From assembly GCA_021324635.1 (NCBI GenBank), contig JAJPIS010000060.1, positions 1 to 64,000 of the forward strand: 64,000 bases of DNA, in the 5' to 3' direction. Shown here piece after piece: positions 6,358 through 32,910 of this stretch; position 1 is the stretch's first letter, and each line of letters begins with the position of its first letter. The notes beneath the pieces were generated by a model, which was not told the DNA's origin, made no database searches, and saw only the letters and a list, made by a program, of their open reading frames with translations. The DNA comes from Gemmatimonadota bacterium. Its GTDB lineage: Bacteria > Gemmatimonadota > Gemmatimonadetes > Gemmatimonadales > Gemmatimonadaceae. Position numbers and translations under genes: made by a program.

Positions 6358-6470
6358 TCGGCGGGCCTTCGCGCTGGGGCAGGGGACGGAAGTCATCGGC
6401 GTGACGACCGATCGCGCGCGGTGGCAACGGTGCGGGCCGCCCCACGGGTCGGGGCGGGACGCGACCACGC

Positions 6471-6757
6471 GGGCGGCATACATGCCGCCCCTACCCGTCG
6501 GCGCGGGATGCGAATCGCGGGCGGCATGAATGCCGCCCCTACCGTCGCCGCGGGATGCGAATCGCGGGCGGCATGAATGCCGCCCCCACCCGTCGGCGCG
6601 GGATGCGAATCGCGGGCGGCATGAATGCCGCCCCCACCCGTCGGCGCGGGATGCGAATCGCGGGCGGCATACATGCCGCCCTACCCGTCGGCGCGGGATG
6701 CGAATCGCGGGCGGCATGAATGCCGCCCCTACGACGGGGCGGCCTGGCGGCCGCCCC
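6471..6757. repeat. REP-like palindrome array 1: six core copies plus one variant
   Basis: Six copies of a 20-base palindrome (GGGCGGCAT, two-base loop, ATGCCGCCC) start at 6471, 6519, 6566, 6614, 6662 and 6709, so the period is 47-48 bp. Each unit also carries the flanking text GGGATGCGAATCGC on one side and CCTAC or CCCAC on the other. Read on the reverse strand most copies have the tetranucleotide GTAG (or GTGG) just before the palindrome, as REP elements do. A seventh element at 6736-6757 keeps the GTAG head but has different arms (GGGGCGGCC/GGCCGCCCC). The array fills the gap between two reverse-strand genes (6358-6756); nothing else is seen there. Confidence 0.9.
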
Positions 6758-17804: not shown

Positions 17805-18857
17805 ATGAGCGGGCGGTACGGCTGGGTGCTGATCCTGACGCTGTCACAGGCGCCGGCACGGCCTGGGACGGCCACCGCCCGCGTCCAAGAGGGCGCCGGC
17901 GCGGCACGCGCGGCCGCGCCGATGGCGGTCCTGTTCGGCGCCCGGGTCACCCCGGACACCGTCACCGTTGGCGCGCCCTTCCGCGTCGTGCTCCGCGTGC
18001 GGGCGCCGCGCGGCGCGGCGGTCTCCTTCCCGGACGGCCCCGACTCCGGGGCGGCGGTGGAGGCGCTCGACCCGCGCGAGACAGCACGCACCCGCGACTC
18101 ATCCGTGGTCGACGTCCAGGCGACGTACCGGCTCGCGGCCTGGGAGGTGGGGCCGCAGGCGATCGCGCTCGCGCCGATCGTCGTGCGGATCCCTGGGGGC
18201 GAGGCGCGCTCGATCGTGCCCCACCTCCTGGTCGTCGTGGCCTCGACGGTGCCGGCGGGTGGGGCCGGGCGGATCCCGAGAGCCGCGCGGGCCTTCTACC
18301 CCGACGTGGGAGCGTGGTGGTGGTCGCTCGCGCTCGCCCTGGCCGTGCTCGTCGTCGTCGCGCTGGCGTGGTGGCTCGCCGCCCGCGCGCGCAACCGCCG
18401 GCGGCGCCCGCCGCCGGCGCCCAGCGCGCTGGACCGCGCGGCCCGTGAGTTCGCCGACCTGGATCGACTGGGCCTGCTCGAGGCGGGCGAGACGGGCCGC
18501 TACGTGGCGCTCACGGCCGAGATCGTCCGTGCCTATCTCGCCCGCCGCCTGCCGGTGGCCGTCCTCGCCAGCACCACGGCCGAGCTCCTGGAGTCGCTCC
18601 GCGGGGATCCGCGCGTGCCGACCGTTCGCCTCCGGTCGCTGCTCGCCGATATCGATCTCGTGAAGTTCGCTGCCCGCACGACGACCGCCGACCATGCGCG
18701 CACGCTCGCGCAGCTGGCCCGCGCGTTGGTGACGGAGATCGATGCCGCGGTGTATGCCGCCGAGGTCGAGGCGCGCGAGGCGGCGGCGCGGCAGGCGGCG
18801 CGGGAGTTCGACGAGCGCCGTGCGGCGCGCGCGGCCGGGCGGGGGCGGGCCGCGTGA
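17805..18857 (+). CDS. Bat operon membrane protein with BatD-like Ig domain and cytoplasmic helical tail
   Basis: This 350-residue protein starts at ATG 17805, which has GGAGG 10 bases upstream; the frame is open further up but without a site. A signal or anchor segment is followed by an Ig-like beta domain (FGARVTPDTVTVGAPFRVVL region, about 45-155) similar in style to BatD. One membrane helix (WWWSLALALAVLVVVALAWW, about 170) and a helical cytoplasmic region ending in a charged Arg/Glu/Ala coil complete it. It occupies the slot often filled by a DUF4381-like protein. Its GTGA-type overlap with batA implies coupled synthesis. Function is inferred from the operon only. Confidence 0.78.
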   Translation: MSGRYGWVLILTLSQAPARPGTATARVQEGAGAARAAAPMAVLFGARVTPDTVTVGAPFRVVLRVRAPRGAAVSFPDGPDSGAAVEALDPRETARTRDSSVVDVQATYRLAAWEVGPQAIALAPIVVRIPGGEARSIVPHLLVVVASTVPAGGAGRIPRAARAFYPDVGAWWWSLALALAVLVVVALAWWLAARARNRRRRPPPAPSALDRAAREFADLDRLGLLEAGETGRYVALTAEIVRAYLARRLPVAVLASTTAELLESLRGDPRVPTVRLRSLLADIDLVKFAARTTTADHARTLAQLARALVTEIDAAVYAAEVEAREAAARQAAREFDERRAARAAGRGRAA

Positions 18858-19855
18858 CGGGGCCGCTCGACCTGCGCGCGCTGGAGTTCCAGGCACCCTG
18901 GGTGCTGGCGACCCTCGTGCTCCTCCCCGGATGGTGGTGGTGGCGGCGCCGGCGGCAGCCGAGTGCCATCACGTTCTCGCGGGTGGCGACGCTCGCGGCC
19001 GGGCCGACCAGCGGACGGAGGCTCGCACGGGCGCTGTTCGTGCTCCGCAATCTCGCGCTCGCTGCGGTCGCGATCGCCCTCGCGCGGCCGCGGCTCGGTG
19101 CGCGCACCGAGAGCATCACCGGCGACGGCATCAACATCGTGCTCGTGATCGACCTGTCGAGCTCCATGCTCGCGCTCGACTTCCAGCCGGCGAACCGCCT
19201 GGAGGTCGCCAAGGAGACGATGAAGCGCTTCGTCATGGGGCGAGCCGCCGACCGGATCGGGGTCGTCGCGTTCGCGGGCGAGGCGCTCACACAGGTGCCC
19301 CTCACGCTCGACTACCCGGTCGTGCTCGCGGCGATCGACAATCTCCAGGCCGGCCAGTTGGAGGATGGCACGGCGATCGGGACCGCCATCGCGACGGCGG
19401 CCAACCGCCTTCGCATCGCGCCGGGCCAGTCGCGGGTGATGATCCTCGCGACCGACGGCGTCAACAATCGCGGCGCGATCGACCCGCGCACGGCGGCGCG
19501 CGCGGCGGCGGCGTTCGGGATCAAGATCTACACGATCGGCATCGGGAGCGAGGGGCTGGCACCGGTGCCGGTCGGGCGGGGTCTCTTTGGGCTTCGCTAC
19601 GAGAACCGCGAGGTCCGGATCGACGAGTCGCTCCTCTCGGACATCGCCCGCACGACGCACGCCCGCTTCTTCCGCGCACGCGACGCGGCCGCCCTCCGTC
19701 AGATCTACAAGGAGATCGACCAGCTCGAGCGGGTGCCGGTGCGGATGCAGTCGTACGTGCGCTACGCCGAGCAGTTCCGATGGCCGCTGGCGGTCGGACT
19801 GGTGGCTCTGACGCTGGAGCTCGCGCTCGTCGCGTGGCGGGGACCCCTGCTGTGA
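18854..19855 (+). CDS. batA: BatA: VWA-domain inner-membrane protein
   Basis: This 333-residue protein has two N-terminal membrane helices (VLATLVLLPGWWWW and ARALFVLRNLALAAVAIALA), a VWA domain with the metal site motif VLVIDLSSSM (DxSxS at 100-104), and a C-terminal helix (WPLAVGLVALTLELALVAW). BatA and BatB form membrane complexes implicated in oxygen or envelope stress resistance in some bacteria. The GTG start overlaps the previous stop. The last bases CTGCTGTGAC once probably provided an overlapping GTG start for batB, but the repeat array now intervenes. Confidence 0.9.
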   Translation: MTGPLDLRALEFQAPWVLATLVLLPGWWWWRRRRQPSAITFSRVATLAAGPTSGRRLARALFVLRNLALAAVAIALARPRLGARTESITGDGINIVLVIDLSSSMLALDFQPANRLEVAKETMKRFVMGRAADRIGVVAFAGEALTQVPLTLDYPVVLAAIDNLQAGQLEDGTAIGTAIATAANRLRIAPGQSRVMILATDGVNNRGAIDPRTAARAAAAFGIKIYTIGIGSEGLAPVPVGRGLFGLRYENREVRIDESLLSDIARTTHARFFRARDAAALRQIYKEIDQLERVPVRMQSYVRYAEQFRWPLAVGLVALTLELALVAWRGPLL

Positions 19856-19880
19856 CTCGCCCTGCGGTGGCTCGGCTCGC

Positions 19881-20254
19881 GCATCCGTGGCCGCGGGACG
19901 CGGCCGTCCCGGCATCGGGGCGGGTTGCGAGTCGCGGGCGGCATGAATGCCGCCCCTACGCGGGGGCGCGCCTGACCGCCGGCGTTCGCCCACCCGTCGG
20001 GGGGTCACGCATCGGTGGCCGCGGGACGCGGCCGTCCCGGCATCGGGGCGGGATGGGAGTCGTGGGCGGCATGAATGCCGCCCCTGCGCGGGGGTGCGCC
20101 TGACCGCCGGCGTTCTCCCACCCGTCGGGGGCTCGCGCATCGGTGGCCGCGGGACGCGGCCGTCCCGGCATCGGGGCGGGATGGGAGTCGCGGGCGGCAT
20201 GAATGCCGCCCCTACGCGGGGGCGCGCCTGACCGCCGGCGTTCTCCCACCCGTC
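19881..20254. repeat. REP-like palindrome array 2: 128 bp tandem units inside the Bat operon
   Basis: Three units with an exact 128 bp period begin at 19881, 20009 and 20137; the palindrome cores are at 19936-19955, 20064-20083 and 20192-20211. On the reverse strand the head is GTAG in the first and third copies. Each unit also carries text (TGACCGCCGGCGTTCTCCCA and similar) that matches the 5' end of the batB reading frame, so the tandem expansion included the beginning of batB. Because 128 is not a multiple of three, each copy reads in a different frame. It fills the gap of about 0.2-0.4 kb between batA and the conserved part of batB. Confidence 0.92.
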
Positions 20255-22018
20255 GAGCGACCGGCGTGGCTGATCGTCGCGCTGCTGCTTCCGCTCGCGG
20301 TCGCGCTCCTGTTCGTGCGGCGCGAACGCGACCGCCGCCGCCGGATCGCGCGGCTCGGCGATCCGGCGGCCGTGCGCCGGATGCTCACCGGCGAGCCGGT
20401 CTCCCACAGCCGCGTCCGCAGCGTGCTGCTCGGCGCGACACTGGCGTGCGCGGCGCTCGCGTTCGCCGGGCCGCGGTGGGGCTCCGAGCGTACCGCGGTT
20501 CGCACGTTTGGCGCCGACGTGGCGATCGCCGTCGACGCGTCGCTCTCGATGTTGGCGACCGACGAGCGGCCGAGCCGCCTCGAGCGCGCCAAGGATGATG
20601 TGCGGCGGCTCCGCGCCCTGTCGCCGGGCGATCGCACGGCGCTCATCGCCTTCGCCGGGCGGAGCTACATCCTCTCACCGCTCACCGCCGACGACGGCGC
20701 GCTGGCGCTCTTCCTCGATAACCTCGACCCGTCGGTCGTCGGCCAACCGGGCACGTCGCTGAGCCGCGCCATTCGGCAGGGGACGGAGCTGCTGCTCGCA
20801 ACCCGCACGGCCAGCGACCGCGCGCTGGTGGTGCTTAGCGACGGAGAAGGCTTCGAGCCCGAGGAGGAAGTGCGGGCCGCGGCCGCGCACGCGGCGGACC
20901 TGGGAATCAGTCTCGTGCTCGTCGGCTACGGCACCGAGGAGGGGTCGACGATCCCGATCACCGGCGGCCGGACCCCGGTGCTCAAGCGCGATGAGAGCGG
21001 CACTATCGTGGTCACACACTACACGCCGACCCTCCTCCAGGCTGCCGCCCAGTCCGGCCGCGGGACGTTCATTCCCGCGGCGACCACCGACAAGGCGGCG
21101 AACATTCGCCGCGCGCTCGCCAAGCTCCGAGTCGCGCAACGGGAGATCGAGGAGGGTGACCGTCGCTCGGCCCGCTTCCAGCTCTTCCTCGCGCCTGCAC
21201 TCCTGCTGCTGATGGTGGACACCTGGCTCGCCGACCCGCGCCGGGCCCGCACGGTCGCGGTGGCGCCCGCGCCCACGGGCGCCGCCCCGCTCACGTCGCA
21301 TCTGCCCCCGCTCCCGGCTCGGGCCGGCACGGCGCTGATCGCGCTGCTGATCGCCCCACTCGGCGGGCCGTTCGGCGGGCCGCTCGGCGGGCCGTTCGGC
21401 ATCACGGGTCCTTTCCGGTGGCCGCCGGCATCGGGAGTGCACGGCTCGCCCGCGGTGCGGGTCGCCGCGTACCGACGCGCGATCGATGCGGGCGACCGCA
21501 GTCCCCGAACCCTCTACAACTACGGCACGGCCTTGCTCGCCGCCGACTCGCTCGAGAGCGCGATCTCGGTCCTGACCCAGGCGGCCGACGCGCGCGATCC
21601 CGACGTCCGCTATCGCGCCGGGTTCAATGTCGGGCTCGCGCACCTGCGGCGCGGTCTGGCGGCGCCGAGCGACAGCGGCGCGTCGGAGCTGGACGCCGCG
21701 CTCGACGCGTACAAGCGCGTGCTGCTCGGGCATCCCGGCGATGCCGACGCGCGTTGGAATTACGAGCTGGCGCTCAGGGTTCGACGGGGTGGGGGTGGGG
21801 GCGGGGGCGGAGGTGGAGGGGGGGGAGGGGGAGGGGGAGGGAGAGGCAGCGGCGGCGCGACCAACCCCCCGCCGGGACAGGCGGGCGCCGGGGGCGCGCT
21901 CGGCCGTCGACAGGCCGAGGAGTTGCTGAACAACGCGGCCCGTGAGGAGCGCGACATCCAGGGCAAGATGCAGCGTGCCGCGGCGACCGACATGCCGCCC
22001 GGGGGGAAGGATTGGTAG
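20075..22018 (+). CDS. batB: BatB VWA membrane protein fused to a BatC-like TPR region; start displaced by repeats
   Basis: The conserved protein begins near 20255 (ERPAWLIVALLLPLAVALLF). The only in-frame ATG ahead of it is at 20075, inside the repeat array, which adds about 60 repeat-encoded residues; a CTG at 20228 (TAGVLPPVERPAW) looks like the ancestral site. Counting from 20228, a membrane helix is followed by a VWA domain (VAIAVDASLSMLATDE carrying DxSxS, and VLSDGEGFEPEEE), a second helix (FLAPALLLLMVDTWL), Gly-Pro repeats, and TPR-type helices (YNYGTALLAADSLESAISVL; WNYELALRV). Eighteen consecutive Gly (21788-21841) precede a tail matching BatC ends. The protein thus fuses BatB and BatC. 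The stop overlaps the next start. Confidence 0.82.
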   Translation: MPPLRGGAPDRRRSPTRRGLAHRWPRDAAVPASGRDGSRGRHECRPYAGARLTAGVLPPVERPAWLIVALLLPLAVALLFVRRERDRRRRIARLGDPAAVRRMLTGEPVSHSRVRSVLLGATLACAALAFAGPRWGSERTAVRTFGADVAIAVDASLSMLATDERPSRLERAKDDVRRLRALSPGDRTALIAFAGRSYILSPLTADDGALALFLDNLDPSVVGQPGTSLSRAIRQGTELLLATRTASDRALVVLSDGEGFEPEEEVRAAAAHAADLGISLVLVGYGTEEGSTIPITGGRTPVLKRDESGTIVVTHYTPTLLQAAAQSGRGTFIPAATTDKAANIRRALAKLRVAQREIEEGDRRSARFQLFLAPALLLLMVDTWLADPRRARTVAVAPAPTGAAPLTSHLPPLPARAGTALIALLIAPLGGPFGGPLGGPFGITGPFRWPPASGVHGSPAVRVAAYRRAIDAGDRSPRTLYNYGTALLAADSLESAISVLTQAADARDPDVRYRAGFNVGLAHLRRGLAAPSDSGASELDAALDAYKRVLLGHPGDADARWNYELALRVRRGGGGGGGGGGGGGGGGGGRGSGGATNPPPGQAGAGGALGRRQAEELLNNAAREERDIQGKMQRAAATDMPPGGKDW

Positions 22019-32683: not shown

Positions 32684-32910
32684 GTAGGGGCGGCATTCAT
32701 GCCGCCCGCTGATCGCATCCCACACGGATGCCCGGCCCGGCATGTCGCCCGCGTCGCCCGGCCATCGTCGGGGGCGGCATTCATGCCGCCCGCTGATCGC
32801 ATCCCGGACGGATGCCTGGCCCGGCATGTCGCCCGCGTCCCCCGGCCGTCGTCGGGGGCGGCATTCATGCCGCCCGCTGATCGCATCCCCCACGGATGCC
32901 TGGCCCGGCT
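32684..32910. repeat. REP-like palindrome array 3: 84 bp tandem units
   Basis: Palindrome cores start at 32688, 32772 and 32856 (period exactly 84 bp), in the opposite orientation to arrays 1 and 2. The first copy has the GTAG head at 32684-32687. Units share the extended text GCTGATCGCATCCC after the palindrome, and a spacer containing GGATGCC(C/T)GGCCCGGCATG. The third unit degenerates after about 55 bases. The array occupies most of the 384 bp between convergent groEL and the metallo-hydrolase gene; the remainder holds the two terminator hairpins. Confidence 0.92.

Follow-up and report, generated by a model that had tools for sequence, protein, structure and literature searches.

We asked where translation of batB begins at a locus in which a tandem array separates the conserved part of this gene from its upstream neighbor, batA. 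The window, that is, the whole stretch of 64,000 nucleotides analyzed here, contains the genes in the order moxR, a DUF58 gene, an unassigned open reading frame (ORF), batA, batB, and an ORF in the place of batD. The gene following batA qualifies as batB in that it encodes a VWA domain, lies 3′ of batA, and belongs to a moxR-DUF58-bat cluster; among NCBIfam models, BatB of Leptospira matches it best, at a score under the cut-off of that model. The batA protein has 79 to 82% amino acid identity to its counterparts in two congeners, G001 and G002, and in genome G009. The 3′ end of batA reads CTGCTGTGA, and a GTG (19852 to 19854) overlaps its stop codon. Coordinates of all features are collected in Table 1.

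Table 1. Features of the moxR-DUF58-bat locus and of the array at the batA-batB junction (window positions)
Feature	Position	Strand	Remarks
moxR	15777		Same window as batA/batB
DUF58 gene	16826		Same window as batA/batB
batA	18854..19855	+	Stop TGA 19853-19855; Pfam PF07584 and PF00092 (BatA N-terminal domain, VWA)
Proposed native batB start GTG	19852..19854	+	-4 nt overlap with batA stop; usual junction in relatives
Proposed first 11 batB codons (VTRPAVARLAH)	19852..19884	+	Left flank of insertion; ~33 nt
83-codon ORF opened by proposed native GTG	19852..20103	+	Stop TGA 20101-20103, within unit 2
Tandem unit 1	19874..20001	+	
REP element copy 1	19886..19971	-	GTAG-GGGCGGCATTCATGCCGCCC on minus strand
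Tandem unit 2	20002..20129	+	Differs from unit 1 at 9 of 126 positions
REP element copy 2	20014..20099	-	Tag reads GCAG
Tandem unit 3	20130..20255	+	4 differences from unit 1, 5 from unit 2
REP element copy 3	20142..20227	-	
batB ORF	20075..22018	+	Only canonical in-frame start; VWA_2, PF13519
Native batB codons LTAGVLPPV	20228..20254	+	First 27 nt of the 28-mer

Between the batA stop and conserved batB lie three units of 128 bp (3.0 copies, positions 19874 to 20255, by both TRF and a repeat search), a separation that the initial annotation had already described. The units are 93 to 97% identical to one another, and since no other array in the window reaches their TRF score of 694, the array is not due to chance. 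Its anatomy is well supported. In each unit, left flank accounts for ~11 bp, a dispersed REP element for ~86 bp, and batB for 28 bp. The 28-mer, CTGACCGCCGGCGTTCTCCCACCCGTCG, occurs in each unit (with one mismatch in unit 1), and a search of the 4.09-Mb genome allowing up to 3 mismatches returned these three array matches only, while a 20-mer from the left flank (19852 to 19884) returned just two other matches, both with 3 mismatches. Confinement of the 28-mer to the array therefore indicates that the element first inserted here and was then amplified on the spot together with its batB flank. The 28-mer also aligns in frame with the congener BatB N terminus, LTASLPFLERPLW. These results bear out the earlier proposals of an insertion and amplification at the start of batB and of true batB 5′ text in the units. 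They also make hardly credible a reading of the array as an ordinary intergenic cluster of REPs, with the 28-mer belonging to the element rather than to batB. Although the window has further REP clusters that seem to be intergenic, that explanation is contradicted by the lack of the 28-mer elsewhere in the genome, and the in-frame similarity to the congener N terminus further argues against it. Some dispersed copies seemingly extend as far as position 108 of the unit; they do so with consistent mismatches, however, and since the full 28-mer occurs nowhere else in the genome, we rejected its assignment to the dispersed element. Neither the whole region (z of -1.73) nor a single element (z of -0.72) was exceptional in RNA structure, and Rfam, promoter, and terminator scans returned no match.

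On the minus strand, the REP element opens with GTAG followed by the palindrome GGGCGGCATTCATGCCGCCC, which is the pattern of GTAG-type REPs. In units 1 and 3, the tag stands at the foot of the palindrome (GTAGGGGCGGCATTCATGCCGCCC, minus strand); in unit 2, it is GCAG. The family has a high copy number, with 120 to 123 matches in the genome (>100 copies), and its tandem runs are common there, with periods mostly of 45 to 47 or 76 to 80 bp. A search of the two congeners did not detect the element, and elsewhere in the order there were only weak partial matches, in two genomes. Two more arrays of this palindrome family occur in the window, at 6436 to 6732 and 32687 to 32909 (periods of 48 and 84 bp), both apparently intergenic, the second lying between groEL and a convergent gene. 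Outside the window, same-family arrays with 126-bp and 120-bp periods were found at L070 (G000:C35:5150-5800) and L078 (G000:C75:21350-22550), possibly with comparable compound units. Every palindrome of the batB array contains TGAATG (window 19943 to 19949, 20071 to 20077, and 20199 to 20205), a stop/start pair supplied by each unit.

A search for Y1_Tnp in the genome gave one match, at 2518 to 2739 on the minus strand of L098 (G000:C75:1-6000), where the Y1 transposase domain (PF01797) scores 28.4 bits against a cut-off of 23. Inverted REP palindromes lie on either side, at L098 positions 2307 (GTAG first) and 3155 (CTAC last). We call this gene RAYT-like because its C-terminal motif, NPRRW, deviates from NP(L/V)(R/K)xG and because its score with the NCBIfam model REP_Tyr_transpos (REP-associated tyrosine transposase) is just under the cut-off (77.4 versus 80). 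A PDB sequence search with the transposase returned no match. The gene resembles RAYT/REP systems (Nunvar et al. 2010, PMC2817692) in its histidine-hydrophobic-histidine motif (HVH here) and in its inverted REPs on both sides, and it differs from them in the same NPRRW motif and NCBIfam score. A small literature search found no description of RAYT/REP systems in Gemmatimonadota.

We compared batA-batB junctions from 60 related genomes and a genome collection. In relatives with an adjacent batA, the usual arrangement is a batB start that overlaps the batA stop or lies close to it (CCGTGA or CCATGA). In some relatives, a different gene lies 5′ of batB. Among 39 relatives, the N-terminal BatB tail ahead of the conserved core comprises 7 to 25 residues (median, 11) when the [D/E]xPW-type motif is included in the count. 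The array is absent from the junctions of both congeners examined, G001 and G002, and the DNA match to G001 extends through GTG 19852. Because relatives start batB at or near the batA stop, the native start is most likely GTG 19852, a codon that is still present. The 33 nt left of the insertion agree in length with G002 (33 nt from its ATG to the aligned position) and align weakly with the congeners, with 50 of 1,000 (G001) and 279 of 1,000 shuffles equally good; because of this weak alignment, the exact insertion point is unproven. On the right side, only 5 of 1,000 shuffles align as well as the 27 nt do with LTASLPFL of G001, whose junction, MPTLTASLPFLERPLW, corresponds to LTAGVLPPVERPAW in the window. 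A frameshift in G001 batB (L100, G001:C105) was considered as a parallel disruption and rejected, as it coincides with an NN assembly gap.

The same comparison bears on CTG 20228, which the initial annotation had taken to stand where the GTG start would be. The G001 tail has an identical CTG-ACC (Leu-Thr), and because relatives start batB at or near the batA stop, 7 to 25 residues ahead of the core, CTG 20228 would be an internal Leu codon; junctions in relatives led us to reject it as a mutated native GTG start. Comparison with array-free relatives, the check suggested at the outset, thus sustained the N-terminal text, which is similar to that of G001, and not the CTG as a former start position. 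We also find it quite improbable that BatB now begins at this noncanonical CTG. A tail of native length (MTAGVLPPVERPAW) would result, agreeing with relatives in length and charge, and CTGA overlaps the TGA (20229 to 20231) of an ORF at 19947 to 20231 in a -4 arrangement. However, the equivalent congener codon is an internal Leu, the ORF ending at 20231 differs from that which the batA-coupled GTG opens, and CTG start codons are rare in bacteria.

In a one-unit arrangement, GTG 19852 reads 49 codons, in frame, into ERPAWLIV. In all tested arrangements of 2 to 5 units, its frame ends in the second unit, and the resulting 83-codon ORF of the present array had no Pfam match. The number of units was taken from one draft assembly of 127 contigs. 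That the three-unit state is an assembly artifact, with a different true number of units, is conceivable given this draft status and an array that exceeds short-read length, with exact shared runs of up to 59 bp (the longest common to the units). Nevertheless, we regard it as rather improbable, since differences at 4 to 9 of 126 positions imply at least three distinct versions of the unit, both array flanks come from one operon, and the fate of the GTG is identical in all of the 2- to 5-unit states.

The batB frame itself contains a stop, TGA 20072 to 20074, and then ATG 20075, its first canonical start. This ATG had been named earlier as the only one in frame, and it is indeed the sole canonical in-frame start, 60 codons before ERPAW. 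Those 60 array-encoded codons are rich in arginine: extension and tail together have 14 K/R and a net charge of +9, compared to at most 1 K/R and net charges of -3 to +1 in the 39 relatives. We infer that the extension disfavors normal BatB topology, because the loop after the first BatB helix is also strongly positive (+8). The spacing of ATG 20075 to the leader stop is -29 nt; a review notes weaker translational coupling at longer overlaps and cites one study in which none was seen at -25 nt (PMC12548453). Both this spacing and the length and strong positive charge of the extension argue against ATG 20075 being used efficiently. Translation of BatB is most likely reduced and uncoupled from batA.

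Alternatively, BatB might be well translated from ATG 20075 and tolerate a 60-residue repeat-encoded N terminus, becoming a REP-decorated protein comparable to those in Rickettsia. The ATG is the sole canonical start and immediately follows an in-frame TGA (TGAATG), batB is an intact ORF with pN well below pS, and there is precedent in REP-encoded stretches of 43 to 82 residues and in expressed, N-terminally decorated proteins (PMC3733652). Weighing against this are the net charge of +9 ahead of a helix that is followed by a +8 loop, the position of the ATG within a palindrome, and the -29-nt spacing, and we consider efficient translation from this ATG unlikely. Absence of batB decay may mean that the gene is still well translated. 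However, its integrity is not decisive, because neutral batB often stays free of nonsense codons in simulation: ~30 to 60% of runs of neutral decay at the divergence of the array were without one, and we therefore rejected the intact ORF as proof of translation. Accelerated batB evolution was likewise rejected, as dN to G009 showed no excess (0.379 for the window, versus 0.377 and 0.343 for the congeners). A separate feature of the gene is a run of Gly codons at window positions 21786 to 21846, encoding about 18 consecutive glycines.

We consider it probable, at roughly two chances in three, that a REP insertion near batB codon 11, amplified in place to three units, led to loss of frame and reduced BatB. 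An element of the genome's own REP family, presumably moved by a RAYT, would have entered batB near codon 11, just 3′ of the GTG, at a point that can be placed only approximately. At a single-unit stage, the GTG would still have been in frame with BatB. Tandem amplification would then have copied the element together with its flanks (~11 bp on the left and 28 bp of batB on the right) to give three 128-bp units, and the frame would have shifted, as 128 cannot be divided evenly by 3. Translation initiated at the GTG would now yield an 83-codon leader that ends in unit 2. The only canonical BatB start left would be ATG 20075, which lies within the next-to-last unit's palindrome and would lack tight batA-batB coupling. 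The predicted outcome is most likely a much reduced translation of BatB, any product carrying a 60-residue arginine-rich extension. An extension of this model, in which the array is a switch, with loss of two units by recombination restoring GTG-started, batA-coupled BatB and cells alternating between full and reduced BatB, is very improbable in our estimate.

The kind of event is already known, namely, an intragenic REP cluster. GTAG-type REPs form clusters that reiterate REPs together with flanking DNA, and they occur inside ORFs, also at N termini (Di Nocera et al. 2013, PMC3733652). The batB array resembles these clusters in its GTAG-tagged palindrome, high copy number, tandem reiteration that includes flanking DNA, and intragenic, N-terminal copies. 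It differs from them in that its unit holds the host gene's own 5′ codons and in that amplification would have put the native start out of frame. Gemmatimonadota are not mentioned in the main text of that study. Rickettsia palindromic elements (RPE) in ORFs (PMC3733652) similarly place a palindromic repeat within a protein gene, but RPE insertions preserve the host frame, whereas in batB the frame from the native start is preserved only by a one-unit array. As in tandem-repeat phase-variable (contingency) loci, the number of units sets the frame of the start codon; unlike in those loci, the units are long (128 bp), and of 1 to 5 units the one-unit state alone restores the GTG reading, on the basis of one assembly.

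The locus can be read as a record of a REP element entering a coding region and then being amplified together with host codons, and relatives display the array-free state of the same batA-batB junction. It also lends itself to a clean test for translation of a REP-encoded N terminus and provides a lead on RAYT/REP systems in Gemmatimonadota.
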